From positions 4,154,001 through 4,218,000 of the forward strand of contig NZ_AP022561.1 in assembly GCF_010726245.1 (NCBI RefSeq): a stretch of 64,000 nucleotides of DNA, given 5' to 3'. The notes below the pieces were generated by a model. It was given only the letters and a program-made list of their open reading frames with translations, made no database searches and had not been told where the DNA came from. Shown here piece after piece: positions 1-16,766 of this stretch. Position numbers and translations under genes: made by a program. Position 1 is the stretch's first letter; the number at the start of each line of letters is the position of its first letter. This stretch comes from Mycolicibacterium aichiense. Lineage in GTDB: Bacteria; Actinomycetota; Actinomycetes; Mycobacteriales; Mycobacteriaceae.

Positions 1-20
1 GGTGACCAGAAGCTGCGCCA

Positions 21-890
21 CTACAGACCCCTCTCCAACAGATCCAACAGATACGAGCCGTACCCCGACTTCACCAACAGCTCGGCGCGCTCCCGCAGCT
101 CATCATCGGTGAGAAAGCCTTGCCGCCAGGCGATTTCCTCCGGCACCCCGATCTTCAACCCCGTCCGACGCTCCATCGTCCGGACAAAATCGGCAGCGTC
201 GGTCATCTGATCGAACGTCCCGGTGTCCAGCCACGCCGTGCCGCGCGGCAACACCTGCACGCGCAACCGTCCCTGGTCCAGGTACGCCCGGTTGACGTCG
301 GTGATCTCGTACTCGCCGCGATCGCTCGGTGACAGATCTCGGGCGATCGCCACCACGTTGTTGTCGTAGAAGTACAGCCCAGGGACTGCGAAGTTGCTTC
401 GGGGCTGCTTCGGCTTCTCCTCCAGCGACACCACCACACCGGTGGGGTCGAATTCCACCACACCGTAGGCCGACGGCTCGGCCACCCAGTAGGCGAAGAT
501 CTGGCCACCGTCGACATCGGCGAAACACTTGAGCTGAGTGCCCAACCCCGGTCCGTAGAGCAGGTTGTCACCCAGGATGAGGGCGACCTTGTCGTTGCCG
601 ATGAAGTCCGCACCGATGGTGAACGCCTGAGCCAGGCCGTCGGGAGACGGCTGCTGCGCGAACGTGATCGACACCCCGAACCGAGACCCATCCCCCAACA
701 ACCGCTCAAAACTCTCCGCATCATGCGGAGTCGTAATCACCAAAATGTCGCGAATCCCCGCCAACATCAACGTCGACAACGGGTAATACGCCATCGGTTT
801 GTCATACACCGGGATCAACTGCTTCGAGACCCCAAGAGTGATCGGGTGCAGGCGGGTACCGGAACCACCCGCCAGGATGATGCCCTTCAT
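21..890 (-). CDS. rmlA: Glucose-1-phosphate thymidylyltransferase (RmlA)
   Basis: The 289-aa protein joins dTTP and glucose-1-phosphate to give dTDP-glucose, the first step towards dTDP-rhamnose. The N-terminal nucleotidyltransferase signature GGSGTRLHP (residues 9-16 region) is followed by DKPMAYYPL near residue 30, ILGDNLLYG near 110 and the EEKPKQP sugar-binding stretch. Length is close to the roughly 288 aa of mycobacterial RmlA. The ATG at 890 fits the family's usual MKGIILAGG start; a longer in-frame reading to 941 adds only residues coded inside the upstream gene. The start overlaps the stop of the PfaC-like gene as ATGA, so it is probably translated from the pfa mRNA. It may be the housekeeping copy or a dedicated paralogue; the window cannot decide. 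Confidence 0.93.
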
Positions 891-3800
891 GACACCCGTC
901 GGATGACGCGAACGCCCATCCCACGGGTCTCGTAGATGCACAGGTCGTCACACCAGAACCGGCCGTCGAACACCGCGAGCACGCCGCGGTCGTCGCTTTG
1001 TGTCGACAGGATCTCGATCTCTGACTTGGTGCGCTTGTTGGTCGGTGTCACCTGCCCGCGGAACTTCCAGCTGAACATCTGGTCCAAAGCGACCGGCTCG
1101 AACTCGAATTCGTCGCCCGCGCCGGCCAAACCGGCCAGCCGGAACGCCGCGCGGGCCGCCTGCTGCATGGCTTCCAGACCCAGCGAACCCGGCTGCACCG
1201 GATCTTGGAAGAAGTGGGCTTTGAAGAACCACGCTTCCGGGGTGACGTCGTACTCGGCGACCAGCCGTCCCAGCCCGGCTTCTCCCCCGCCGGGCCAGAA
1301 CTTGACCCGGTCGAGCACCTGAAGCCGGCCCTGGTCCAGCCACGGTGCGCCGTCGAGCTCAGGCGCCCGGTACGGCAATTCGACCGGCGCCGGTTCGGAA
1401 AGCGCCTCGAGCACACCGGTTTTCATTCGCAAGCCGACTTGGTTGCGCAGCGCCTCGGGACTGAAGAAGCCGAATGCCGTCTTCATCGTCATGACGACGT
1501 CGTCGTTCTGGGTGCAGACGACGTCGAAGAAGACGATCGTCGAACCGGCGCCATCGGCAAACCGCTCCAGCGTCGAGGTCACCCGCAGGGTGCCTACCCG
1601 GGCCGGCCGATGCTGGATGACATCGCCGCCGTCGAGATTGCGGAACACCACGTCGTCGGGACGATTCGCGGCGAATCCGTTGTACGACGACAACCAGCCG
1701 CACGGCTGCAGCAGGATTTCGATGAGCACCGGCATCGGCACCGCGTCGACGTGCGCGTCGGCGAAGTACCACTCACCCTCTGGCACATCGTATTCCGCGA
1801 CGACAGTGCCACCCTTGGTCGGAACTCCCGGCGGGCTGGACACGCTGAGCACGCGGGACATGAAATGGTACGGCTCATCCGGCAGGCGCGGTGCCCGCCT
1901 CGTGCCATCGAACGGCGCATACAGGGCGCCGAACGCATCCGACGGCATCCCGCGCCCGCACGCCAGAAGCGCGCCCTGGTCACCGCGAACATCGTTGGTG
2001 CCGGCCAGGATCTGCACTGGCCCGGGCGCACCCGGCGGCATCGGCCAGTCCGGGACCAGGCGCATCCCGAAGCGCCGGGCGTGGAACACCTTGAAACCGT
2101 CACTGCGGCAGAGCAGTGCGGCGAAGACCGTCGGCGTGGGCCCGTCGATGATCTCTTCGATGAACACCTCGTAGTCGAGCATGTGGTCGGCGTCCGGCGT
2201 CACCTGGCCGCGGCAGACGAAACGGGCCATATCGTCGGGCACCGGCTCGAACCGCCACCCATCCTTCTCGATGGTAAAACCGTAGGCAGCCATCGCAAAC
2301 GACAGCGCCTGGGTGGCCGCATCGGCCATCAGTGTGCCGGGCATGCAGGGATCGTTCTTGAAATGCCCGTCGTAGAACCACATGTCCTTGGGCACGGCGG
2401 CGGTGGCACGCAGGTAACCGCGGCCCCATGGCCCGCCGGTGGGATCGAATTCGGCGATCTCGTCGATCAGCCGCAGTCTGCCCTTCGGCAGCGACGGCGT
2501 GCGGGTATGCGCAGCGGCCCGTTCGAAGCCGGGCCCGAAGCACCGGTAAGCGTGACCGTCGGTGAAGGCCTCGACGTCGGCGGCGCTGAAGGAACGCTTC
2601 TGGGTGACCACGGGTGGCTCGTCCCGGACTGCGCCATCGCGCGGCGCGTCGTCAGCGGCGTCCCACAGCACCCCGTCCGACTCGGCAAGCTCGGCATCGG
2701 AGAAGAATCCCGCCTGCCCGTTGCGCACCGAGATCATCAACCGGTCGCCGATGTAGCAGTCATAGTGGAAGAAGAACAACCGCGTATCACCGGTTTTCGC
2801 GTGACCGTCGATGTGGATCTCGTAATGCAGCGTGTCGCCACCCTTGGGCAGTTCACCCATGAACGTCAGGTCACAGCCGAGCAGGCGGTAGACCCGTTCG
2901 CTGCGGTTGGTGAAATCCGCGCCAAGCCAGGAGGCGAGCAACAGATCCGCTTGCCCGCTCTCGATCACCACACCCGGTGACATGCGGCCGTTGTGGATGT
3001 ACCAGGCGTCCGGGTCGACGTCGGTCTCGGTGACGATCAGGCCGGTCCCCATCGTTCCGGGCTCGCCCTCGATGCTCATCACCCGATCGGCCAGTAGCAG
3101 CGGCGGCTCCGGCATCCGCACCAGCCGCTCGTACTGGTCGTACTCGGCGAACTTCGGTCCCATCACCTCCGAGACCTTGCCGCCGGCAAGAACTTCCAGC
3201 TGAGCACGGGTCCACAGCGGCTCTTTCGACGCAGCCAACCGCTTGCTCGGCGCAGGCGCCTGCGCCGGCGCAGCGGGCGGCGCGGGCTGGCCGACGGTGA
3301 CCGGGGGCGGCGGCGGGGCGGGTGGTGCGGGTGGTGGTGGCGGCGGTGGTGGCGGTGCACTCGGCGCAGGCATGACCGGTGCGCTCGCCACGGGAGCGGG
3401 GGCAGCCGCCGGTGCGGGTGTGAAGACGGCCGGCGCGCTCGTCGCGACGGTGGAATTCGATCCCCGCCGTCCCGACACGAGGGCGAGAAGATCGCCGCGC
3501 GACTTCAGGAACGACGAGTGAGCCTCTGCCTGCCGCTCCAGGAACGCGGTGTGCGCGTGGCTGACCGAGGCGACCAGGTTCAACGCCGTCGTCGTCTGAT
3601 CGCTGCGCGTGGCAGCCGCCGGCGCGGCAGGCGCAACCGGCCGGGCCACGACAGTGCTTGTCTCCGTGACGCTGTGCACGACGAGGTCCTCGGCTACCAC
3701 CAGCGGCGTAAGTCGCGCGGGCGCGGGCGGCATGACTTGAACACTTCGCACTTCAGGCATTGGCGTACTTCCGTTTCTGGACGCCGCCGGCGTCGAGACA

Positions 3801-6800
3801 GGCATGGGTGGTGCGGGAGGCGAAACAGTCTGGGGCGCCTCGGGAACCGAAACGATGTCCGGCCAATGAGCGGCCAGCGTGAGCTTGCGGGTGCCCTCCG
3901 ACGACGCCGGCTCCCGCTGCTCGCGCAGTTGCCGGATACGCGCCTCGAACGCCTCGATGTCGACGGGCAGTCCGTGCACCCACAGCTTGGACACGCTCTC
4001 GGCCAACGCACGCAGCCCCCGCCGTTCTTGGGGGTCCAGCGCGACAGCCAGATGCGGTCGGTCGCCGAGGATCTTGCCGACCGCCCCGGTCAGGATGCTG
4101 CGCGGGCCGTGCTCGACGAAGATCCGGACACCGTCGTCCCAGGCTTGCAGAATCGTTGCCGGGAAGTCGATCGGCTCAAGGGCCTGGCGGGTGATCGCCT
4201 CGGCGGCTGCTTCACGGGTGGGCACATAGGCCCGGTTGACCGCGTTGGTGTAGAAGCGGATGTCGGGGACCTCGTGCGTCTCCCGGGTGTGAATGCTGCG
4301 CCAGGTTTCGGCGAACGGCGCCATGGCCTCGCAATGGATGACCATGTCCAGCCCCAGCGGGATCGCGGTGGCGCCGGCAAGCGCGTCGATCACCCGGCGG
4401 CATGCCGCGGGATCCCCACCGATGACGCAGTCGTCCGGTGCCTGCACGATCGTCATGTAGGCGCGCGGTTCGGTGGCCAGTGCAGCGTCGACCTCGGCCC
4501 GCGGCGCGGTGATCCGCCAGCACTCCCACGGTGCCGGCTGATCTCCGAGCCCCCAGTCGGCGGCGGCCACCCGGCAGTCACCGGTCAGCTCGTCGCCGTA
4601 CATGCCGGACGCTTCGATCTCCCCAAGCATCGGTTCCAGATCACGCCAGACCCCGAAGGCCAACAGCGAGTTAGTCTCACCCGACGAAAGTCCGATCGCC
4701 GCAGTCGGTGTGAGACCGAGTACGGCCCTTGAGAACTCGGCCTGCGATTGGCAGACCAGAGCGCAGCCGGTCAGCTGGGTGCGCGGATCCAGCGTGGTGA
4801 TCCCGGCGCCGTGCAGCGCGCGCGCCAGATCCCCGACACCGGAGAGTCGTTCGGTGAGCGCGTCACCGATCTCGGGCCACGCGAACAACAGATCACGCCC
4901 GGCGCCCGGGTACGCCGCGGCGGCACCGGTGAACGTGAACGCCAGCTCGCCGGCCATCGGTTCCTCGGCATAGGCGATGCCGGGGATCGCAGGCGCCTCG
5001 AAGCGTTCGAGGCGCTGGAGCGCCTGCTGGCGCAGTTTGTCCACCGTGGACTCGCTGTCACCGACCAATGAACACCGGACCGGTCCGGCGCCACCTGGCT
5101 CGCCACGCCGCATCCGCGCGAGCAGATCCGCCCGGCTGTTGCCGGCATAGCGTTGCGAAAACGGCACGACGCCAACAGCCAGTGGCTTGGGCGCGCCGTC
5201 GGCGGCGGATACGGTGATGCCGTCGGCATGCCCGCCCAGCGCCTCCACCCACACCGCCGCCGAGGTACCGCCCGGCGCCGGTTGAGCCCCGGCCTCGTCC
5301 ACCCGCACCCGGGCCCGGACTGCTTCGGCACGGGCCGCGATCTCCACGGCGGCACTGGCCGCATGGGTGCGGCCGATCCGGCCGACCGCGAAATTCGGAT
5401 CCGTTTCGAGCGGTTCGTCGTCGGTGTCGATGACAGCGATGATCTCGTCGCCGGCCTCCTCGGCGTCCGCACGCCGCTTGAGCACAAAGGCCACCGCGGC
5501 GTCGCCGTGACCCACGCTGGTGTCGGCGTCGAGCGCATCAGCTGCCCGCGAATGCGCCGGCTCACAACACATGTCGACCGCGCCGGCGACGACGGTGTCG
5601 AGCTCACCGTGCCGCAGCGCTCGAATGCCGATCTGCAGAGCGGTGATCGCGGACAGTTCTTCGGTGGACACCGTGAATCCGAATCCGCGGAAGTCGCGCT
5701 GCGCGTGGATGCGGTTGGCGGGAATGTTCGGCATGGTTCCCACTACGCCGTCGGCGGTCAGCTTGGGGGCCGCTTGCGCGTTGGCGTCCAGCCAGCGTTC
5801 GTTGTCGGTGTTGAGCACCCGCAACCGTTGCCGCGCGATCATGGCGTCGCAGCCCATACCGACGAACACTCCGGTGCGGTCCGGATCGGTGACGACACCG
5901 TCGAGCGCCTGTCCGGCCGCTGCCAGCATGACGGTCTGCTGGCTGAGGCTGCCCGCGAGTTCGTTGGGCGGGAATCCGAGCCCGGCGAGGTCCAGTGCGA
6001 CGCTGTCGAGTGGGGTGGGCTGCGCCTCCGGACCGAACACCCGGCGGCGGAATGCCTCCGGATCGCCTGCGTCGCCGGTGACCACACCGATTCCGCAGAT
6101 CACGATCTCGTCGGTCGGCGGCTGTTGCCGGGTCATCGACGGTTGTGGGCCGCGGTAATTCTCGACGATCAGGTGGGCGTTGTTGCCGCCGAACCCGAAG
6201 TTGCTGACCGCCGCGCGTTTGACCGGGCCGTCCCACGCCGTGGGAGTGGTCACCAAGGTGAACGGCGTATCGGCGAGCTTGTCGGTCGGCTTCCCACACA
6301 CGGTCGGCGGAATGGTCGACGCCTGCATGGCGGAGAGCACATTTACCAAGCTCGCCGCTCCGGACACCGTGATGGTGTGACCCAGGTTGCCTTTCAGCGC
6401 ACCCAATTTCAGCGGAACGTCACCGTAGGCGGCCGCGATGCTCTGCAGCTCGGTGGCATCACCCAGCGGGGTGCCGGTGGCGTGACAGTCCACGTAGTCG
6501 ATGTCGGCGGGGGTCAGCCCAGCCTGCTCCAGCGCGGACATCATGGCACGGGTCTGACCGCCCACCGCCGGTGCCAGGAAGCCGCTCTGGCGGCCGTCGT
6601 TCGAGAGCCCGACGCCCAGGATCACCCCGAGGATGTTGTCCCCGGCGCGCTCCGCGTCGGCCAGACGCTTCAGCGCCACCAGGGCGGCACCTTGCGACGG
6701 CACCAGTCCGTCGGCTTCCGCGTGAAACGGGCGAGACTGCCCTGTCGGGCTCAGCGCCTGCAGCGAGGTGAAACCCAGGTGCAGGAACAGGTCGTCCGAT

Positions 6801-7405
6801 CCGTTGACGCCGCCGGCGAGCATCACGTCGGCATCACCGTCGTGCAATGCGTCGCAGGCGAGTTTGATGGCGTAGAGCGACGATGCGCAGGCCGCGTCGA
6901 GCGCGAACACCGGACCATTCATCTCCATCGCCCCGGCAACCAGGTGCACGGGCAGCCCCGACGAGAACCGGTTACGCGGATCGTCGTTGCCCTCCCCCGT
7001 CCAGACGGCCTCGACGAACGCGGTGCCCATGGTGCTGGGGTAGGACAGATTGCCGACGATCAAGCCGGTGCGTGGCGCCGCGAGCGGACCGCCCAGCGCC
7101 TGCTGCGCGCACTGAGCCAGCCACCGAACGATCGGATCGAGTCGGTCGAAATCCGGTATGCGCGCGGCGAATTGACTCAGGTCGAACGACGTGTCGACAT
7201 AACCTCCGGTCGCCGACGACACCCGCAACCCTGGCTTGTCGCTGGCCAGCAGCTTGTTCGGGTCCACCCCCCGCCATCGATCACTCGGCGTGGGGGTCAG
7301 CAGACAGCGTCCGCTCAGCGATGCGTCGAACAACTCCTCGGGTGTCCCTGCGCCGGGCAGCACACAGCTGCGTCCGACGATCGCGACGGGTTCGAAAACG
7401 CTCAC
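887..7405 (-). CDS. pfaC: PUFA-synthase subunit, PfaC-like: KS-CLF-AT-DH-DH
   Basis: This 2172-aa multidomain protein should extend, dehydrate and release acyl chains held on the ACPs of PfaA. Domains in order: ketosynthase (about 4-425; DAACASS Cys173, DCHATGT His308, GNLGHT His343); chain-length-factor-like KS (about 433-705; the Cys site reads VSTEELS, so probably non-condensing); acyltransferase (about 818-1150; GLSSGE, nucleophile Ser907); a Pro/Ala linker (about 1230-1400) with a long proline run; then two FabA-like double-hotdog dehydratase units, each an inactive plus an active hotdog (active [11 protein letters not shown]is1681 and [12 protein letters not shown]is2064). Start: GTG at 7405 overlaps the pfaA stop as GTGA and gives the KS its normal N-terminus; the longer frame to 7636 is out-of-family. 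The layout resembles myxobacterial Pfa3 without its terminal acyltransferase. Confidence 0.93.
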
Positions 7406-10400
7406 GCCGGAGTGTCCGCGGCGCCGCCCGCGGCGTAGAACTCGACACCCTCGAGCGTTGCGATGAGCGCACCGTCGGAGGTTTCGTACGCGATGTCGAA
7501 GTCGACCCGCTTGTCGTTGACCGGGTGTGCGGCCAACCGGCAGCGTCCGATACTGCCCTCGCCGAACGCCCGGTGCAGAACAACACGCGCGATACGGATC
7601 GGCAGCACCAGCGGACGCCCCTGAGAAGCGGCCCACACGATGCCGAGCTGCAGCCCGCCGTCGACACCCGCGGCGTCGATTGCCCAGCCGTTCTGCGGCC
7701 AGCCGAGAGCGTCAAGGCTCTTGAGGTCCGCACTTCCGCCGGCAGCGCCGAACGTGTCGAGTCGCTCGACCACCGTGAACTGCGGTCCATGGAACAGGGG
7801 TCCGGCGTACGCCTCGTCGACGTTGACCGGCCAGGCCGATCCCGACACCGGCGGAACCGACAGTTGTGGCGCCGCGATGGCTGCGGTGTCGACGGTGGCG
7901 CGGTAGCGGGCCCGGCCCTGCGCATCACTGACCGACACCGCGTATTCCGAGCCGACGGGTTCGAAATCGATTCGCAGTGTCTGCTTTTCGCCTTCGGCGA
8001 AGGTGACACCGGAGAGCACCTGGAAATCACGGACCACCGGGCAGGTGTCGGCGACCAGGCCACGGGCCGCGCGCAGAATCGCATCCAGCGCGATCACCAC
8101 CGGCACCACCACCTTGCCGCGGACCTGGTGATCGGTGAGCACCGGCAGCTTTTCCGCCGACACATCCCACTCCAGGTGCGCTGCCCGCAGCCGGGGCTCG
8201 GCGGGGGCGGCAACCACGACCGCGGTGGCCGACGACCGGCACAGCGCGTGATCGGCGAAGAACTGTGCTCCCTCGTCGATGGGGATGACACCCACACCGC
8301 CCGCGAGGAATCGGCTCTTCAATGTCGCGTCGACCATTCCGCCGTCCCACGGTCCCCAGCCGAATGCGCGGACGACACATTCACCGTTGCGCCGTGCGGA
8401 CTCGCGGGCTGCGATGGCCTCCAGCGCCGCGTTGGCGGACGCGTATGCCGCCTGTCCGGGATTGCCTGCTCGCGCGGCAATGGAGGAAAACAACGAGATG
8501 AAGCGCAGGTCGTCACACGAGGTTGCATCGAGGAGTGACTCCGCACCAACCAGTTTCGTGCTGAACACCTTGAGGAATCCGTCGTCGTCGAGGTCTTCGA
8601 GGCGCTTGTCGGCGAGCACACCAGCGCCATGAACGACACCGACGATCGGTCCGAAGTTGGCCCGGACCTCGTTCAGCACGTTGTCCAGCGCGGCGCGGTC
8701 GGTGATGCTGGCCGCGAAGTAGCGCGCCGGCGTGCCCTGCTGCTCTGCGGTCGACAAGGTGGCCCGGACTTCCCGCTCGGCCAGCAGGGTTTCGGCCTGA
8801 GCACGTGCCTGCGGCAGGCTGAGCTGTTCACCGCGGGCCCGCGCCGATGCCGCCAGGGCGGTGGCGATCTCGGCGGCCGTGGTGCCGGCCGGTTCGTCGG
8901 CGCTCACCTCTCGCAGGGGCGTGCGGCCGAGCAGCGCGAGCCGCAGGCCATGGCGTTTGGCCAGCGCCAGCGCCGAGTCCGCAGTCACACCACGAGCGCC
9001 ACCGGTGACCAGTACAACGCCGCCCGTGGTGACGCTGATCGTCTCACCCTCGCCGACCGACGATTCGATGTCGTCGACCGCCACCAACCGGGTGCCGTCG
9101 GCGCGCAGCGCGACCTCGATACCGCTACCGCCCTCTAGCAGTTCGGCCGCGAGTCGCTCGGCGTCAAGGCTTTCCATGTCGATGGCTCGCACGGATGCGT
9201 TCGGCCATTCCCAGCCTGCGGTCTTCACCAAGCTCGCGACTCCGACCGGTACGTCGGCGGCGACGAACCGAGCGCCTGTCGACTGTACGGCGACGAATAC
9301 CCTTGTCGCAGCGCTGCTCCTGGCGACGCTGCGTGCGGCGTGGAATGCGCGCAGATGCATGGCGACACAGTCTTCGGGTGTGCGGGCTGCGGACAGGGCC
9401 GCAAGGCTTATGACGGCGCCCGCCTCGGCGGGTACCTCGTCGACAGTGCTGGCGTTGATGCCGCGAGCCGTCAACGAGGTGTGCAGAGCATCGGCGAAGT
9501 TAGGGTCCTCACGGGTGATGTAGACGACGCCGTCGCGCAGGCCCGCCATCGCGAGACCGGTGGGCGGAGCGGCGCGCAACTCGGCTTCGGTGCAGGACAG
9601 GCCGACCGGCGCGGAGGAGGACGCAGCCGGCTGCGGTGCAGTGGTGGGCTGTTCGGTGCGTCCACCGGAGGCGAATCCGGAGACGGTGTCGACGACGTCC
9701 TGCAGGGTGCGCAGGTTGGCCAGCTCCGAGGCCGGGATCTCCGGGGCACCCGGGAACTTCGCCTGCAACGCCGCCAAAATCTCGACCTGCTTGATCGAAT
9801 CGATCCCCAGCTCGGCCTCCATCTCCATGCCCAACCCGAGCATGTCCACCGGATAACCCGTCTTCTCCGAAACAATCGACAGCACAACATCACCGGCGTC
9901 GACGGTCGGGCCGGCGGCCGCCACTGCGACCGGGGCAGTCGAAACCGCGACCGGTGCGGGCGCCGCGAATCCGGAGACGGTGTCGACAACGTCCTGCAGG
10001 GTGCGCAGGTTGGCCAGCTCCGAGGCCGGGATCTCCGGGGCCCCCGGGAACTTGGCCTGCAATGCGGCGAGGATCTCGACCTGCTTGATCGAATCGATCC
10101 CCAGCTCGGCCTCCATCTCCATGCCCAACCCGAGCATGTCCACCGGATAACCCGTCTTCTCCGAAACAATCGACAGCACAACATCACCCGCAGCCGGACC
10201 CGCAGACGCAGCCGGCGCAGCGGATGTCGGTGCGGGCGCCGCGAATCCGGAGACGGTGTCGACAACGTCCTGCAGGGTGCGCAGGTTGGCCAGCTCCGAG
10301 GCCGGGATCTCCGGGGCCCCCGGGAACTTCGCCTGCAATGCGGCGAGGATCTCGACCTGCTTGATCGAATCGATCCCCAGCTCGGCCTCCATCTCCATGC

Positions 10401-13400
10401 CCAACCCCAGCATGTCCACCGGATAACCCGTCTTCTCCGAAACAATCGACAGCACAACATCACCCGCAGCCGGACCCGCAGAAACAGGCGCAGCCACCGC
10501 AACCGCAGCAGCCACCGGCGCCGCAAAACCGGCGACCGTATCCACCACATCCTGCAGAGTGCGCAACCCGGACAACTCCGAGGCCGGGATCTCCGGGGCA
10601 CCCGGGAACTTCGCCTGCAACGCCGCCAAAATCTCGACCTGCTTGATCGAATCGATCCCCAGCTCGGCCTCCATCTCCATGCCCAACCCGAGCATGTCCA
10701 CCGGATAACCCGTCTTCTCCGAAACAATCGACAGCACAACATCACCGGCGGCGACAGTCGGGCCCGCAGACACCGGCGCAGCCACCGCAACCGCAGCAGC
10801 CACCGGCGCCGCAAAACCGGCGACCGTATCCACCACATCCTGCAGAGTGCGCAACCCGGACAACTCCGAGGCCGGGATCTCCGGGGCACCCGGGAACTTC
10901 GCCTGCAACGCCGCCAAAATCTCGACCTGCTTGATCGAATCGATCCCCAGCTCGGCCTCCATCTCCATGCCCAACCCGAGCATGTCCACCGGATAACCCG
11001 TCTTCTCCGAAACAATCGACAGCACAACATCACCCGCAGCCGGACCCGCAGCCGCAGCCGGCGGAGTCACCGACGCGACCGGGGCAGCGGGAGTGACCGG
11101 CGGTGCGATCACCGGCGCGGGCGTAACCGCAGCCGCAGCCGCAGCCGAAACCGGCGCGGGCATAACCGGAACCGGCGCGGGCGCAACCGCGACGGGAGCA
11201 GGCGCAGGGGCCACAACCTGTGGCGCTGCAACGCTGGCCGTCACCATCGGAGTTTGCGCAGTCGTCCGCGGATCGCCCACGACGTGGGCCATCATCTGGG
11301 TGGACATGTCCAGGAATGCCTGATGGCTGCGCGTGACGACATCCATGTAGCGCTGGTGCTGTTCGGCGGTTTCCTTCTGGATACTGTCGATCACGCTCCA
11401 CACATCGCCGGACAGCGGCGCTTCGATGACCTCGGCCTGTACCTCCACCTGTTGCTGCACCACCGGTGCCTGCTGGTGAATCACGGGCGCTTGTGCCTGC
11501 GCCACCGGCGCCGGTGCGGCAGCCGCAGGCGACGCCATGCGCTGAACGGTCGGCGCCGGCTTCTCAATAGCGGGCGCCGTGGCGGCCGCCGGTGCCGGGC
11601 TGGGCGTGCTCACCCGAGTGCGCTTCGGGGTGATCGACACCTTGCCGTCGGCGGGCGGATACGGCTTGCCCAGGTTGGCGCCTCCCACCTTCACCGCATG
11701 CTTGGGGGCAGGAACGTACTGCAACGGCTCCTCGTAGTGATCGAAGAGGGCGCCGAGGTCCAGGGCCACGCCGTCGGCGGCCAACGCCGCGAGGCCGCGA
11801 TGCCAACCGCGCAGCCCATCGGCCTTCTGGTCGTCCAGGGAGATCGCGGCATGCGGAGTCGATCCGAGGATCTTCCCGACCAGTCCGGTCAACACCCGTC
11901 CTGGGCCGACCTCGACGAAACGCGTGACCCCGTCGCGGGCCATCGCCTCGATCATCTCGCGGAAACGCACCAGCTGTTGCACCTGATCGCCGAGCTGGGT
12001 GGCGACCTCCTCGCCGTACTGCTGCGCAGTGGCGTTGGCGTACACCGGGAAGTTCGGCTGGCCGATCTTCAGCGTCTTCAGATATGCGGTCAGGGGTGCG
12101 CAGCTCGAAGCCACGATCGGGGAGTGGAACGCCGAGGCGACCGGCAGGCGAACCGCCGTCCAGCCCTTGGCTTTCGCCGCATTCTCGGCCCACGCGATAT
12201 CGGTCTCGTGACCGGCAAGAACCACCTGAGTCGGCGCATTGTCGTTCGCGACGACCAGCGATCCGTTGTCCGGCTGCGATGCCACCAGCGCACGTACGTC
12301 ATCGGCGGTCGCCGACACCGCCAGCATCGCGCCGTCCTTGCCCTGGCCCGCCTCGTTCATCAGCGTGCCGCGGGTGCGTGCCGTCTCGACGAGACTCTCC
12401 ATCGGCAGGACACCGGCGGCTGCCAGCGCGGTGACTTCACCGAAGCTGTGGCCGGCCGCGGCATCGGCGCTCACACCGAGGAGGTCGAGCAGCGCCAGTT
12501 GCGCGAGACTGGTTGCGGCGATGGCCGGTTGCGCGTTGGCCATCGCGGTGAGTTCCTTCTTCTGCGCATCGGCCGCAGCGGCGTCGAACACCGGCTCCGG
12601 GAACACGACGCCGGGCAGGTCGGCCAGATCACCCTGCAGCCCGTCCCAGATCGCGAGCGCTTCGGGGAAGGCCAGTGCGAGGTCACCCCCCATCCCGACG
12701 TACTGGCTGCCCTGCCCCGGGAACAGGAAGGCGGTCTTGCCGTCGCGTGCCGGGCCCAGGCCGACGGCGATGTTGGCATCTTTGAGCGTCGCGACGGTGC
12801 CACCGGCCAGCGCAATGCTGAGCCGGTCAGCCACCGCGGCAAGTGATTCGGCGTCGGTCGCCACCAGCCCTGCACGCGCGTGCTGCGATGCGTCGAAGAC
12901 CTCTGCGGCATCGAAGGCGATGCGCGCGAGGCTTTCGCCGGCGCGGGCGGCCGCGGCAATATCGGAAGCCCGCTTCTGCAGTTCGGCCTCCGACGGCGCA
13001 CTGAGCACCACCAGCTCGCTGGGCAGGGTCCGCAGCCGCTTGGCACGGTGCTCGCCCTGATACTCCTCGAGCGTCACGTGGAAGTTGCTGCCGCCGAAGC
13101 CGAAGGAGCTGACGGCCGCTCGCCGGGGCTGATCGCCCTTACGCACCCAGGGCCGGGTCTGCGCGTTGACGTAGAACGGCGAATCTTCGATCCCCATTGC
13201 AGGATTGGGCCGATCGACCTTCAGGGTGCCGGGCAGCGTCGAATGCTGCAGCGCAAGAACGGCTTTGATGAGACCGGCGGCGCCCGCTGCGGCCTTCGTG
13301 TGACCGATCTGGGATTTCACCGATCCCAGCGCGATCCGAGCCGAATTGTCGGTGAATACCGACTTCAATCCGGCGAACTCGGCGACATCGCCGGCCTTGG

Positions 13401-14448
13401 TTGCCGTGCCGTGCGCCTCAACGAGTTCCACCGTCGAGGGGTCATAGCCGGCGCGCTCGTACGCCCGACGCAACGCCTTGGCCTGCCCCTCGGAACGAGG
13501 AGCGTAGACGCTGGACGCACGCCCATCCGACGACGAACCCAAACCGCGGATCACCGCGTGGATCTGGTCGCCATCACGCTCGGCGTCGGCGAGACGCTTG
13601 AGGGCCACCATGCCGACGCCCTCACCGATGATCGTGCCGTCCGCACCCTCGGAGAACGGCCGACAGTCACCGGTCGCGGAGAACGCCGGCGTCTTCGAGA
13701 AGCACATGTACATCATCACGTCGTTGAGCGCGTCGACGCCGCCCGTCAGCACCACGTCCGACTCGTGCAGATACAACCGGTGCAGCGCCGACTGCAGCGC
13801 GGAGAGTGAACTCGCACAGGCGGCGTCGGTGACGAAGTTGGCCCCGCCGAGATTGAGGCGGTTGGCGACGCGACCGGCGATCACGTTCCCGAGCAGACCC
13901 GGGAAGGTGCTCTCCTGCCACGGCACATAGTGATCGGCGATGTCCTGACAGATCTCGTCGGCTTCGCTCTCGGACAAACCGTTTTCCAGCAAGGCTTTAC
14001 GCCAGATCGGCCGCTGCATCCGCGAGCCCATCTGCACCACGAGTTCGGTCGTCGAAGCGACCCCGAGTACGACGTCCACCCGATCCAGGTCGATGTCGGC
14101 GCCGCCGCGCTGCACCTCGTCGAGCAGCTGCCGGGCCGCCACCAGGGCGAGAATCTGTCCGGTGTCGGTCGACGGCAAAGCGTTTGGCGGCAGCCCGAAC
14201 TTCACCGGGTCGAAGTCCACGGCCTCGATGAAACCGCCCCGCTTGCAATAGGTCCGGTCCGGCGCCTTCGGGTCGGCGTCGAAGTAGTCCTCGATCAGCC
14301 AATGCGAGGGAGGAACGTCGGCGATCGCGTCGCGGCCGGTGGTGATCGTGCGCCAGAAGCCGTCGAGCCCAGACTCACCCGGGTAGATCGCCGACATGGC
14401 GACCACCGCGATAGGAGTTGCAGTGGGCTGGTGCGTGTTGTCAGTCAA
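7402..14448 (-). CDS. pfaA: PUFA synthase subunit PfaA: KS-AT-(ACP)5-KR-DH
   Basis: A 2348-aa iterative synthase that carries the growing chain. Ketosynthase at about 12-440 (DAACASS Cys211; EAHGTAT; SQIGHTKAA). Malonyl acyltransferase at about 570-875 (PGQGSQ; GHSFGE Ser668). Ala/Pro linkers flank five acyl carrier proteins with phosphopantetheine serines in GIDSIKQ at 1171, 1267, 1361, 1453 and 1551. Ketoreductase at about 1805-2050 (VTGGARG, then SLFSS...YASAN). The C-terminal polyketide-type dehydratase has HxxxGxxxxP with His2107 and a DGGLQ motif near 2262. No ATG or GTG fits the N-terminus; the chosen TTG at 14448 lies 8 nt after the pfaD stop with AAGGG upstream. All catalytic residues I could locate are intact, so the enzyme looks functional. 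Confidence 0.95.
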   Translation of the reverse strand: MTDNTHQPTATPIAVVAMSAIYPGESGLDGFWRTITTGRDAIADVPPSHWLIEDYFDADPKAPDRTYCKRGGFIEAVDFDPVKFGLPPNALPSTDTGQILALVAARQLLDEVQRGGADIDLDRVDVVLGVASTTELVVQMGSRMQRPIWRKALLENGLSESEADEICQDIADHYVPWQESTFPGLLGNVIAGRVANRLNLGGANFVTDAACASSLSALQSALHRLYLHESDVVLTGGVDALNDVMMYMCFSKTPAFSATGDCRPFSEGADGTIIGEGVGMVALKRLADAERDGDQIHAVIRGLGSSSDGRASSVYAPRSEGQAKALRRAYERAGYDPSTVELVEAHGTATKAGDVAEFAGLKSVFTDNSARIALGSVKSQIGHTKAAAGAAGLIKAVLALQHSTLPGTLKVDRPNPAMGIEDSPFYVNAQTRPWVRKGDQPRRAAVSSFGFGGSNFHVTLEEYQGEHRAKRLRTLPSELVVLSAPSEAELQKRASDIAAAARAGESLARIAFDAAEVFDASQHARAGLVATDAESLAAVADRLSIALAGGTVATLKDANIAVGLGPARDGKTAFLFPGQGSQYVGMGGDLALAFPEALAIWDGLQGDLADLPGVVFPEPVFDAAAADAQKKELTAMANAQPAIAATSLAQLALLDLLGVSADAAAGHSFGEVTALAAAGVLPMESLVETARTRGTLMNEAGQGKDGAMLAVSATADDVRALVASQPDNGSLVVANDNAPTQVVLAGHETDIAWAENAAKAKGWTAVRLPVASAFHSPIVASSCAPLTAYLKTLKIGQPNFPVYANATAQQYGEEVATQLGDQVQQLVRFREMIEAMARDGVTRFVEVGPGRVLTGLVGKILGSTPHAAISLDDQKADGLRGWHRGLAALAADGVALDLGALFDHYEEPLQYVPAPKHAVKVGGANLGKPYPPADGKVSITPKRTRVSTPSPAPAAATAPAIEKPAPTVQRMASPAAAAPAPVAQAQAPVIHQQAPVVQQQVEVQAEVIEAPLSGDVWSVIDSIQKETAEQHQRYMDVVTRSHQAFLDMSTQMMAHVVGDPRTTAQTPMVTASVAAPQVVAPAPAPVAVAPAPVPVMPAPVSAAAAAAVTPAPVIAPPVTPAAPVASVTPPAAAAGPAAGDVVLSIVSEKTGYPVDMLGLGMEMEAELGIDSIKQVEILAALQAKFPGAPEIPASELSGLRTLQDVVDTVAGFAAPVAAAVAVAAPVSAGPTVAAGDVVLSIVSEKTGYPVDMLGLGMEMEAELGIDSIKQVEILAALQAKFPGAPEIPASELSGLRTLQDVVDTVAGFAAPVAAAVAVAAPVSAGPAAGDVVLSIVSEKTGYPVDMLGLGMEMEAELGIDSIKQVEILAALQAKFPGAPEIPASELANLRTLQDVVDTVSGFAAPAPTSAAPAASAGPAAGDVVLSIVSEKTGYPVDMLGLGMEMEAELGIDSIKQVEILAALQAKFPGAPEIPASELANLRTLQDVVDTVSGFAAPAPVAVSTAPVAVAAAGPTVDAGDVVLSIVSEKTGYPVDMLGLGMEMEAELGIDSIKQVEILAALQAKFPGAPEIPASELANLRTLQDVVDTVSGFASGGRTEQPTTAPQPAASSSAPVGLSCTEAELRAAPPTGLAMAGLRDGVVYITREDPNFADALHTSLTARGINASTVDEVPAEAGAVISLAALSAARTPEDCVAMHLRAFHAARSVARSSAATRVFVAVQSTGARFVAADVPVGVASLVKTAGWEWPNASVRAIDMESLDAERLAAELLEGGSGIEVALRADGTRLVAVDDIESSVGEGETISVTTGGVVLVTGGARGVTADSALALAKRHGLRLALLGRTPLREVSADEPAGTTAAEIATALAASARARGEQLSLPQARAQAETLLAEREVRATLSTAEQQGTPARYFAASITDRAALDNVLNEVRANFGPIVGVVHGAGVLADKRLEDLDDDGFLKVFSTKLVGAESLLDATSCDDLRFISLFSSIAARAGNPGQAAYASANAALEAIAARESARRNGECVVRAFGWGPWDGGMVDATLKSRFLAGGVGVIPIDEGAQFFADHALCRSSATAVVVAAPAEPRLRAAHLEWDVSAEKLPVLTDHQVRGKVVVPVVIALDAILRAARGLVADTCPVVRDFQVLSGVTFAEGEKQTLRIDFEPVGSEYAVSVSDAQGRARYRATVDTAAIAAPQLSVPPVSGSAWPVNVDEAYAGPLFHGPQFTVVERLDTFGAAGGSADLKSLDALGWPQNGWAIDAAGVDGGLQLGIVWAASQGRPLVLPIRIARVVLHRAFGEGSIGRCRLAAHPVNDKRVDFDIAYETSDGALIATLEGVEFYAAGGAADTPA
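9671..11034 (-). repeat. Five tandem 224-bp ACP-coding repeats within pfaA
   Basis: Five 224-bp units lie at 10811-11034 (ACP1), 10523-10746 (ACP2), 10241-10464 (ACP3), 9965-10188 (ACP4) and 9671-9894 (ACP5), separated by Ala/Pro-rich linkers of 52 to 76 bp. The half coding for the phosphopantetheine-serine region is essentially identical in all five, with one visible G/C difference in ACP3. The other half falls into two types: ACP1/2 (SGLRTLQ...VAGF) and ACP3/4/5 (ANLRTLQ...VSGF). ACP5 is a mosaic of the two at DNA level. Tandem ACPs are characteristic of PUFA synthases, where copy number is linked to product yield. Assemblers and aligners may collapse this region. Confidence 0.95.
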
Positions 14449-14456
14449 GATAACCC

Positions 14457-16067
14457 TTATCCGAGAGGACGTGGACGGAAATCGAAGGAGGCAGCAGGCA
14501 TCGCGACGCCCGCTGCCCGTAACTGGCCGGCACGGGTCACAGTCGCGGCTCCCTCGAGCAGGTTGAGCGCGATCTGGCGGACCGTCCGCGCTTCCACTGG
14601 CTCGAGGAAACTCCCCCGAACCCATTGGTTGAAGGCACCCATCGCAGGCCCACACCAGATCTGATAGTCGCCGCGGCGGGCGGTGTTTCCGTCGCGCGCC
14701 CACTGCGAACCCGTGAAGAGGTACCACCGGAACACCAGCGCCATGCGATGTTTCGGATCCGCCGCCGCGCGTTCCACCTGCCGCGGGTCACTTTTGGCGA
14801 AGAACGCCTCGGTGTCCGCCCAGATGTCGGCGACGCTGCGGCCGAGGACCGTCTTCTCCAGGTTCGCGAGTTCCTCGGCCGGCGCCTCCTCGAGTGAGGA
14901 GTAGCGACGATAGAATTCGGCCAGCCGGTGGCCGCGCTGAGCGAACATGGTGCCGCGCTTGAGGACCTGCACGGTCACGCCCATCTCGAACATGTCCGCG
15001 GCAGGCGCCATCGCCACATCGGTCGATTCGGCCATTCCGAGCAGCGCTCGCGCATCCGGCGAGAGACCGCTTTCCACCGCAGACTGGTTGACCGAACCGG
15101 TCAGCACGTACGCGGCTCCGGCGGCGAAGGCGGCGGCGACCGCCGCCGGTGTCCCCAACCCGCCGGCGGCACCGACCCGCGGCAGAACCGGATAGCGATA
15201 GGTGGAGGCGATCTCGTCGCGCAGGCTGATCAATCGCGGGAGAAGCACAGTCAGCGCGCGGTTGTCGGTGTGGCCGCCCGAATCCGCCTCGGCGGTGATG
15301 TCTTCCGCGATCGGGATGCCGGCGGCCAGCGCGGCCTCTTCCGCGGTGAGCCGGCCCTCGGCGACAAGTGCGGTCAACATCGCTTCCGGGGCGGGCGAGA
15401 GGAACTGGCGGGCGACCTCGTCGCGGGACACCTTGGCGAATATGTGCCCGGACCGCACGACCTGTCCGTGTGCGTCGCGGCGCAGCCCCTTGGCCGCGTA
15501 GAGGACGACGGCGGGCGTGAGTCGCATGAACGCCGAGGCGGAGACGTAGCGGACACCGAGCCGGTGGAACAGATCCACCGTCGCTAGTTCGACGCCGTCG
15601 CTCTGGACATTGTGGATCAGGTTGGCGCCCCACCCGCTGGCGTTCGGACCGAGCGCGGCCTGAATTTCACGCAGGCCCGCTTCCACGGTTGCCAGATCCA
15701 GCCCGGCACTTCCATAGAACGCCATCACCCCGGCGCGCACACCCTCGACAGTCATCTGGGGCGTAGCGATACCGCGGGCCATCTCGCCGACGACGTAGGG
15801 GAACCGCACACCATGCGTCGCGGTGAAACTCCGGTCGCCGAGCCATTCGGGATAGATCGGTGGCAAGACCGCGAGGATGTCGTGGCGCATGAGCTCCGGC
15901 GTCAGCACGCCGGCGCCGTCGAGAACCACCGTGCGGGGCCCGTGCGCCGAGGCCACGACTGCGACCGGACTGCGGATTGCGGCGAGCGCCTCGGTGACGT
16001 CCGACCCATCGAGCAACGCCGAAGAGGCGCCATTGGTCGGATGAGAGTTAGCCAACGTCGCCTGCAT
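14457..16067 (-). CDS. pfaD: PUFA synthase enoyl reductase PfaD
   Basis: This 536-aa FMN-dependent enoyl reductase of the nitronate-monooxygenase/FabK fold works in trans with PfaA and the PfaC-like subunit, reducing selected enoyl-ACP intermediates. The N-terminal part (residues 1-90) contains a Pfa-specific leader with VLDGAGVLTPELM. The TIM barrel follows, with NLIHNVQSD, EDITAEADSGGHTDNR and the glycine-rich FMN-phosphate segment GAAGGLGTP (about 300-310), then the C-terminal PfaD extension containing FRWYLFTGSQWARDG. The start is the ATG at 16067; the frame runs on to 16184 but that extension has no family similarity. It is the first gene of the minus-strand pfa operon; pfaA starts 8 nt after its stop. 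Confidence 0.93.
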   Translation of the reverse strand: MQATLANSHPTNGASSALLDGSDVTEALAAIRSPVAVVASAHGPRTVVLDGAGVLTPELMRHDILAVLPPIYPEWLGDRSFTATHGVRFPYVVGEMARGIATPQMTVEGVRAGVMAFYGSAGLDLATVEAGLREIQAALGPNASGWGANLIHNVQSDGVELATVDLFHRLGVRYVSASAFMRLTPAVVLYAAKGLRRDAHGQVVRSGHIFAKVSRDEVARQFLSPAPEAMLTALVAEGRLTAEEAALAAGIPIAEDITAEADSGGHTDNRALTVLLPRLISLRDEIASTYRYPVLPRVGAAGGLGTPAAVAAAFAAGAAYVLTGSVNQSAVESGLSPDARALLGMAESTDVAMAPAADMFEMGVTVQVLKRGTMFAQRGHRLAEFYRRYSSLEEAPAEELANLEKTVLGRSVADIWADTEAFFAKSDPRQVERAAADPKHRMALVFRWYLFTGSQWARDGNTARRGDYQIWCGPAMGAFNQWVRGSFLEPVEARTVRQIALNLLEGAATVTRAGQLRAAGVAMPAASFDFRPRPLG

Positions 16068-16406: not shown

Positions 16407-16766
16407 TCAGTAATTCATGCAGGTGTTCGCGACCTGCGTAATCTGTGGGCCGATCTGCGCGAAGATGAGCGCATTCAACTGTGGGTTCACCGCTTGCTGC
16501 TGGGCCAGCGCCTGCTGACGCTGGTCGGGGGACATGGCGAGGAACTGCTGAATATTGGCCTGCATATCGGGCCGTCCGTTGAGCTGTTTACCAAGGGCCG
16601 GTGCCTCCGCATTCAAGGCGGCCGTCACCTGCGCGTAGGTACACGAGGTGTTAGCCAGCGCATCCATGATCGGGTCCGCCGAGGCGGGCGTCGCCGGCAC
16701 GAGCGGAAATAGTGCGATCAGACTTCCCACAACGACGACTCGTCGTAAGCACCGCTCTGAGTTCAT
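16407..16766 (-). CDS. Secreted hemophore-like protein
   Basis: A 119-aa exported protein. A basic start (MNSERCLRR) and hydrophobic stretch are followed by a likely signal-peptidase site after PATPASA. The mature part is Gln/Ala-rich and has one cysteine near its N-terminus (TSCTYAQ) and one near its C-terminus (NTCMNY), suggesting one disulfide. Size, spacing and composition match the mycobacterial hemophore-related family around Rv0203, whose members carry haem outside the cell; haem binding is not shown here. I chose the ATG at 16766, with AAGGG about 12 nt upstream; the longer reading to 16826 would put hydrophilic residues ahead of the signal peptide. It is monocistronic as far as visible. 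Confidence 0.7.
   Translation of the reverse strand: MNSERCLRRVVVVGSLIALFPLVPATPASADPIMDALANTSCTYAQVTAALNAEAPALGKQLNGRPDMQANIQQFLAMSPDQRQQALAQQQAVNPQLNALIFAQIGPQITQVANTCMNY

Follow-up and report, generated by a model that had tools for sequence, protein, structure and literature searches.

We describe a lipid synthase of the Pfa type encoded at the left end of a 64-kb stretch of Mycolicibacterium aichiense DNA (the window, bases 4154001-4218000 of one 5,925,482-base contig, NZ_AP022561.1; coordinates to the left of the window are written as negatives that continue its numbering). The synthase is almost certainly intact, and its probable role is to make the acyl chain of an exported, rhamnosylated lipopeptide, for which it would be the dedicated supplier; this lipopeptide would be the product of a surrounding locus that resembles those for glycopeptidolipids (GPL). 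Entry of the Pfa chain into the glycolipid of this cluster is favoured to a similar degree, while a polyunsaturated chain has slightly less than an even chance. Altogether, the analysis points to a cell-surface lipid as the product. The pfa genes and their domains are as follows.

14457..16067, minus strand: pfaD, trans-acting enoyl reductase (ER), 536 amino acids (aa), ATG start (TIGR02814, 605 bits, cut-off 449.25)
7402..14448, minus strand: pfaA, ketosynthase (KS), malonyl-CoA acyltransferase (MAT), five acyl carrier proteins (ACPs), ketoreductase (KR) and polyketide synthase (PKS)-type dehydratase (DH), 2348 aa, TTG start (TIGR02813, 1533.5 bits, cut-off 1010.1; Pfam)
13216..14418, minus strand: KS domain of PfaA (PF00109 and PF02801)
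11878..12729, minus strand: MAT domain of PfaA, GHSFG (PF00698)
9658..11040, minus strand: five tandem, nearly identical ACP domains of PfaA, GIDSIKQVEIL (five PF00550 stretches; translation)
8344..9021, minus strand: KR domain of PfaA (PF08659)
7402..8175, minus strand: PKS-type DH of PfaA, HxxxGxxxxP and DGGLQ (PF21089)
887..7405, minus strand: pfaC-like (pfaBC-like) gene, KS, chain-length factor (CLF), acyltransferase (AT) and four hotdogs, 2172 aa, GTG start
6299..7393, minus strand: KS domain of PfaC (PF00109 and PF02801)
5327..6115, minus strand: CLF of PfaC, without the active-site Cys, VSTEELSA (sequence)
4037..4954, minus strand: PfaB-like AT of PfaC, GLSSG (TIGR02816, 50.5 bits, below the cut-off of 144.3; motifs)
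926..3169, minus strand: FabA-like DH region of PfaC (PF07977, three stretches; four hotdogs read)

The genes are tightly packed, with 8 nt between pfaD and pfaA and a 4-bp overlap of pfaA with pfaC, just as an earlier reading of the same DNA (the original prediction) had described. Its list of domains with intact motifs is likewise borne out by Pfam, NCBIfam and the sequence: two KS, one CLF, two AT, five ACP, KR, a PKS-type DH, two active hotdogs and ER. Hotdogs 2 (H..D) and 4 (H..E) of PfaC have His and Asp/Glu positioned as in FabA, and hotdog 4 aligns to the FabA of a solved structure; hotdogs 1 and 3 are degenerate. The AT fused into PfaC falls short of the PfaB model (TIGR02816). In this domain GLSSG replaces the GHSxG of malonyl transferases, with no His before the Ser, and Ile precedes the catalytic His, residues that agree with those described for PfaB (PMC12895367; for this and the other papers cited, statements refer to the accessible parts of their text). 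The tandem ACPs of PfaA and the KS-CLF and FabA-like DH of PfaC are the domains that mark a Pfa-like secondary lipid synthase. PfaA and PfaD both exceed their model cut-offs, and two type I PKSs scanned alongside reached only 308 and 347 bits with TIGR02813; together with the KS tree described below, this agrees with the earlier assignment to the Pfa type rather than to ordinary PKS. No phosphopantetheinyl transferase was found in the pfa gene row, and two ACPS-family matches lie elsewhere in the genome.

The gene row does not end with pfaC. The original prediction called 21..16067 a complete operon; the pfa genes stand as described, but positions 21-890 are rmlA, which it did not name, and the row continues through rmlA-rmlB-rmlCD into a cluster of ~95 kb.

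21..890, minus strand: rmlA, glucose-1-phosphate thymidylyltransferase (TIGR01207, 461.6 bits, cut-off 360.65)
1..21, minus strand: start of rmlB, continuing left of the window (TIGR01181, 459.6 bits, cut-off 365.1)
-2424 to -994 (L003:17576-19006), same direction as the pfa genes: rmlC-rmlD fusion (RmlCD), one protein

The rmlA gene overlaps the pfaC stop by 4 bp (ATGA), rmlB and rmlA overlap by 1 bp, and the fused rmlC-rmlD lies 16 nt beyond rmlB, all in the pfa direction. Both halves of the fusion score below the cut-offs of their models (95.4 against 155.75 bits for RmlC, 210.1 against 224.05 for RmlD). A second RmlA above the cut-off is encoded 1.15 Mb away, and the rmlA of the pfa row is an extra copy.

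The remaining genes of the cluster, which extends ~95 kb from a fatty-acyl-AMP ligase (FAAL) to pfaD, include exporters, sugar-modifying enzymes and two nonribosomal peptide synthetases (NRPSs) with condensation (C), adenylation (A), thiolation (T) and epimerization (E) domains.

-8255 and -5372: two MmpL, both over the TIGR00833 cut-off; the best PDB match of the second is MmpL4
-8647: MmpS (PF05423)
-10603, beside mmpS: 465-aa protein of no identified family
Left of the window: EryCIII-like glycosyltransferases, two by Pfam and three more similar by eye
Left of the window: GT4-type glycosyltransferase
Left of the window: TylF methyltransferase
Left of the window: GFO and GMC oxidoreductases and a nucleotide-sugar dehydrogenase
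Left of the window: DrrA-type ABC protein
Left of the window: AT3-SGNH acyltransferase, one annotated and two more similar by eye
Left of the window: sulfotransferase, weak match
Left of the window: MbtH
Left of the window: NRPS1, 1512 aa, C-A-T-E with a TIGR01720 domain (108.4 bits, cut-off 74.2)
-68908 to -53324 (L079): NRPS2, 5194 aa, (C-A-T)x4-E-C-T
Between PKS and NRPS: ICMT-like gene, weak match (49.4 bits, below the cut-off of 160)
Left of the window: Pks2-type PKS, one module (NF041183, 3561 bits, cut-off 2400)
-78977: FAAL (NF004509, 899.3 bits, cut-off 775)

Further out, at -91962, lies a gene that we take for argS, with presumed lysA, hom and thrC as neighbours. The exporter genes are of the mmpS4-mmpL4a-mmpL4b type of a GPL locus. 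The NRPSs, in contrast, do not have the tripeptide-aminoalcohol organisation of Mps1/Mps2: the two contain five A domains in total, and NRPS2 closes with a C-T pair that has no A domain of its own. Common to the GPL locus (PMC1885439) and the present cluster are mmpS/mmpL/mmpL, rmlA, rmlB, glycosyltransferases, methyltransferases, an acyltransferase, mbtH, NRPS, PKS and FAAL, whereas the present cluster adds the Pfa synthase and the rmlC-rmlD fusion and has five A domains with a terminal C-T instead of a tripeptide-aminoalcohol assembly. Since its NRPSs are unlike those for GPL, we do not class it among GPL loci. The GPL-like surroundings nevertheless make a wall lipid, the destination proposed earlier, likely.

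The linkage of these genes was followed through 396 genomes of the genus, searched with TIGR02814 at E <= 1e-20. Matches occur in 72 genomes, over the cut-off in 69. By identity to the PfaD of the window they separate cleanly into class I (78-100%; 41 genomes, 39 with a full gene and fragments in G253 and G004), class II (52-59%; 31 genomes, in pieces in G226 and G076) and one outlier of 41%. G023 holds both classes. The outlier, a PfaD-like sequence in G031 (G031:C1:2492059-2493381), has an in-frame stop and lies beside PKS-type matches. RmlCD-type matches (E <= 1e-100) are present in 88 of the 396 genomes, four of them spanning about one half only, and are found in 35/41 class I and 0/31 class II genomes. 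Wherever class I pfaD and RmlCD share a contig, the nearest copy is less than 25 kb away (24/24), at 16-17 kb in 14 genomes and at 5-6 kb in 10; the two are on different draft contigs in 11 further class I genomes, and six have no RmlCD match. Several draft contigs end near the ACP repeat (window 9658-11040 and relatives), which may explain the separation in the 11 drafts. MmpL homologues within 20 kb from the pfaC end on were seen in 17/18 class I and 0/14 class II stretches; the G031 stretch, the 33rd, has none in its 20 kb downstream. In six of the 17 MmpL-bearing stretches (G140, G056, G084, G082, G099 and G142) the rml block is on the opposite side of pfaD and in the opposite direction, 5-6 kb off.

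The more distant parts of the cluster were located in 18 class I genomes, contiguity being the main criterion of choice. In 15/18, pfaD has a full-length NRPS1 ortholog (62-100% identity) at a distance of 43-102 kb; G151 has partial NRPS matches that start 20 kb from pfaD, and G241 and G004 have no NRPS1 match at E <= 1e-150. The argS-like gene is 54-110 kb from pfaD in 10/18, at 15.7 kb in G241, at 32 kb in G004 and on a separate contig in G289, and ~1.2-1.4 Mb away in five (G099, G056, G140, G082 and G084, the last read around the circle), which are the five of the 18 with the other rml arrangement. The cluster thus holds together in either of two chromosomal settings, and relatives keep its pfa, rml, MmpL and NRPS genes linked. 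G241 is a natural deletion: its pfaC match ends near residue 1339, after the AT (L085, from ~10700), the argS-like gene follows 3.5 kb on, and NRPS1, RmlCD and a nearby MmpL are all missing. G004 has a pfaD fragment only and, as said, no NRPS1. Plasmids searched for close pfaD copies gave 23 records, all below 60% identity and none mycobacterial, so that the collection searched gave no sign of plasmid carriage.

Counted over the class I stretches that cover each motif, PfaA keeps the KS Cys in 21/21, the GHS of the MAT (GHSFG) in 21/21, the ACP Ser in 49/49 and the DH Asp motif in 14/14; PfaC keeps its KS Cys in 14/14 and each of the active hotdogs in 6/6, and the CLF position is without Cys in 14/14. 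Comparison with four relatives gave dN/dS of 0.03-0.19 in 15 of 16 gene comparisons, which shows purifying selection; the 16th (rmlA, L086) yielded no gene. Beyond the window, six class I genomes supplied complete operons with every domain (G140, G172, G009, G056, G098 and G151). The number of the nearly identical ACPs varies among class I operons, with two to four full matches in these six, some of them in pieces in G056.

Class II has a neighbourhood of its own. Among 14 sampled downstream stretches, pfa is followed on its own strand by a FAAL in 9/14 and by a large PKS in 8/14, and in 8/14 a further set lies beyond the PKS in the opposite direction, with PapA5-like and DrrA/B/C-like ABC proteins, and with further PKS in seven. 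Such neighbours, resembling those for phthiocerol dimycocerosate (PDIM), were noted in G143 (L028), G277, G164, G242, G235, G244, G110 and others. By NCBIfam, L028 has a FAAL (879.9 bits, cut-off 775), a Pks2-type PKS (NF041183, 2655 bits, cut-off 2400), matches over the cut-off for the DrrA, DrrC and DrrB-family models and a PKS fragment with a condensation-like end; PapA5-type models reach up to 552.6 bits, each below its own cut-off. We tentatively read this set as a PDIM-like locus. Since a FAAL and a Pks2-type PKS stand at a class I and at a class II locus, both lineages can be tied to such a pair.

In the pathway that we propose for class I, malonyl-CoA would be loaded by the MAT of PfaA and the chain elongated by KS-CLF on the five ACPs, while the outcome for every new C2 unit (reduction, dehydration or a retained double bond) would depend on KR, the two types of DH and PfaD. 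The PfaB-like AT, which is without the malonyl-stabilising His, would off-load the long chain, and the first C domain of NRPS1 could then use it to N-acylate the peptide; alternatively, the FAAL would activate the chain beforehand and the Pks2-type PKS would lengthen it. The lipopeptide would further receive rhamnose, as dTDP-L-Rha from the coupled rml genes, together with methyl and acyl groups, and MmpS/MmpL would export the finished molecule.

Within this pathway the chain might be long and saturated or hydroxylated, comparable to those of the heterocyst glycolipid and the Azotobacter phenolic lipid; this overlaps with the proposal above, so the two are not exclusive, and it deserves serious weight while staying below an even chance. 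The presence of the PfaD ER speaks for such a chain, and against it stands the retention of the PKS-type DH and of two active FabA-type hotdogs, the second with the FabA-type Asp, domains that give the cis double bonds in PUFA (polyunsaturated fatty acid) synthases. The characterised Pfa-like synthases in PMC13291983 and PMC3098273 include some with saturated or hydroxylated products.

A special form of the pathway is serial assembly. Here the FAAL would take up the released Pfa product and activate it, and the Pks2-type PKS would extend it to a Pfa-primed methyl-branched acid in ester or amide linkage. Serial assembly fits the FAAL (899 and 880 bits) and Pks2-type PKS (3561 and 2655 bits) of the class I and class II loci, and the same-strand order of these genes behind class II pfa. 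In the M. aichiense genome, however, FAAL and PKS are ~85-93 kb from pfaD, and two separate chains are equally possible; we regard serial assembly as a tentative option.

It is improbable that the synthase makes a stand-alone PUFA for phospholipid or storage lipid, as in marine Gammaproteobacteria, with the glycolipid cluster a mere neighbour. In its favour, no PUFA-synthase domain is damaged, and residues of the terminal AT of producers of eicosapentaenoic and docosahexaenoic acid (EPA/DHA; PMC12895367) recur in the second AT. Opposed to this are the 4-bp overlap of pfaC with rmlA, the linkage to RmlCD in every one-contig case, the joint occurrence of pfa and cluster at both chromosomal settings and the finding that, among the 18 genomes, NRPS1 is missing from exactly the two whose pfa gene is cut. 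Chance overlap, with pfa inserted ahead of rmlA in a GPL-like locus and no functional link, would profit from the closeness of rmlA to mmpL4b in M. smegmatis (PMC1885439), but is unlikely as well, because rml stays 5-6 kb from pfaD even where it has changed side and direction, and the one-contig cases comprise both the short and the 16-17-kb distance.

Several points weigh against the Pfa synthase as chain supplier of the lipopeptide. The cluster has no known product; its NRPSs and PKS, ~50-80 kb from pfaC, may make the lipopeptide without Pfa, and the FAAL and Pks2-type PKS alone could supply the lipid. Pfam (1e-5) shows neither a thioesterase nor a reductase at the NRPS end. RmlCD-type matches also turn up in 53 of the 355 genomes that lack class I pfa, showing that the sugar part can do without it, and G004 retains RmlCD despite its fragmentary pfaD; the association of class I pfa with RmlCD (Fisher's test, p = 4e-20) comes from a test that ignores relatedness. 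Intactness of the entire operon was checked in just the six other class I operons. Finally, a PapA-like label for the 465-aa protein, suggested by its H-x3-DG-like motif, was dropped: the limits used gave neither an NCBIfam nor a Pfam family, and the protein matched no PDB relative and no PapA5-like profile; a putative acyltransferase is our guess. Its family occurs in 310/396 genomes of the genus and was therefore not used as a marker. For a zeamine-like product, a Pfa-derived polyamine, no aminotransferase was recognised among the annotated genes, and no search was aimed at one.

The origin of the synthase was approached with a tree of 70 KS rows, a set without Shewanella, Moritella or heterocyst-glycolipid references. 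The window's PfaA KS and 63 others fall on one branch, apart from the KS of two mycobacterial type I PKSs (99/99; the tool warns that the two PKS branches are long). Of the KS phylogeny suggested earlier, the choice between Pfa and type I PKS thus comes out for Pfa, and the comparison with Pfa and heterocyst references is covered only in part. Class I KS are sister to a Hyphomonadaceae sequence (100/100) and then to Gemmatimonadota (100/98), while class II KS, with M. simulans and M. szulgai, form a separate branch (100/100). This fits at least two captures of Pfa in mycobacteria. The nearest non-mycobacterial Pfa operon in the set is that of the Hyphomonadaceae alphaproteobacterium (L105, KS 79% identical), a likeness that suggests horizontal transfer. 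No homologue of the cluster's other genes was found in the 10 kb upstream in L105, its downstream end being outside the stretch, and the non-mycobacterial loci among 80 have no rml or MmpL matches in stretches that reach no more than 10 kb, and many of them less, to either side of pfaD and often exclude the operon end.

Hybrid Pfa-PKS-NRPS clusters (clade IV) were mined from two mycobacteria, TNTM28 and CBMA 234, in PMC13291983 (JACS Au, June 2026), with the rule that the three machineries lie within 20 kb, and a related cluster without PKS is named there for M. simulans. The cluster type is thus already in print, though without its sugar and export context. The clade IV core, with Pfa-like genes, a one-module PKS, FAAL/CAL, an NRPS with TIGR01720 and an ICMT-like gene between PKS and NRPS, recurs in the present cluster, and the window's PfaD is 82% and 80% identical to that of the matches named for TNTM28 and CBMA 234. 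PMC13291983 calls the intervening region little conserved, whereas here rml and MmpL are conserved across class I and the NRPSs are found from ~50 kb beyond pfaC onwards; its main text contains none of the words 'MmpL', 'rhamnos' or 'glycopeptidolipid'. PfaA-D of EPA/DHA producers share the domain set (KS, AT, tandem ACPs, KR, DH; KS-CLF-DH2; PfaD; PMC13291983), but here pfaD comes first, the pfaB-like AT is fused into pfaC, pfaE is missing from the row and the surroundings are those of a glycolipid. The 2011 survey of Pfa homologues, PMC3098273, distinguishes secondary lipid synthases of types A-R. The pfaBC fusion occurs among them and type L, too, has pfaD at the 5' end, while the order in PfaC is KS-CLF-AT-DH2 here against KS-CLF-DH2-AT in type L. 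Among the types whose products the survey gives as uncharacterised are actinobacterial ones, in agreement with the earlier remark that actinobacterial homologues mostly lack known products. Its main text uses 'mycobacteri' only twice, in a family name and a reference title, and has no mycobacterial cluster under that word. A literature search with few subscription papers returned none that pairs 'PUFA synthase' with glycopeptidolipid or phthiocerol dimycocerosate.

Phleic acids, the polyunsaturated acids of mycobacterial trehalose polyphleates, come from another PKS locus. Their length of C36-C40 (PMC11633156) speaks against the statement, made with the original prediction, that long polyunsaturated acids are not known as mycobacterial products. 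Trehalose polyphleates resemble the lipid proposed here in being mycobacterial, in their polyunsaturated very long chains and in MmpL export, and differ in the MmpL10/PE pathway, for which the same paper names no Pfa synthase.

In a wider perspective, we put forward tentatively, with odds somewhat against it, that mycobacteria captured PUFA-type synthases at least twice, each with a FAAL and a Pks2/Mas-like PKS, as dedicated chain makers, class I for a GPL-like, MmpL-exported rhamnosylated lipopeptide and class II for a lipid like PDIM or phenolic glycolipid (PGL). If so, the envelopes of dozens of mycobacterial species would contain lipids that we found described nowhere, with very long acyl chains of Pfa origin that may be polyunsaturated. 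GPLs and PDIMs are major mycobacterial surface lipids, and a second, Pfa-type acyl route, as class I in 41 and as class II in 31 of the 396 genomes, would mean an overlooked group of them. Such a route can be tested directly in environmental, culturable species, and G241, which lost the rest of the cluster, offers a natural contrast.

Scans of the window for tRNAs and for Rfam families (gathering scores) returned no matches. One more gene adjoins the operon, just upstream of pfaD.

16407..16766, minus strand: small hemophore-related protein with an N-terminal hydrophobic stretch (TIGR04529, 68.8 bits, cut-off 32)

This family, which we take to include Rv1174c, is also present upstream of pfaD in 15/18 other class I loci. 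In the GPL locus of M. smegmatis, a gene called Rv1174 sits between mmpL4b and rmlA (PMC1885439).

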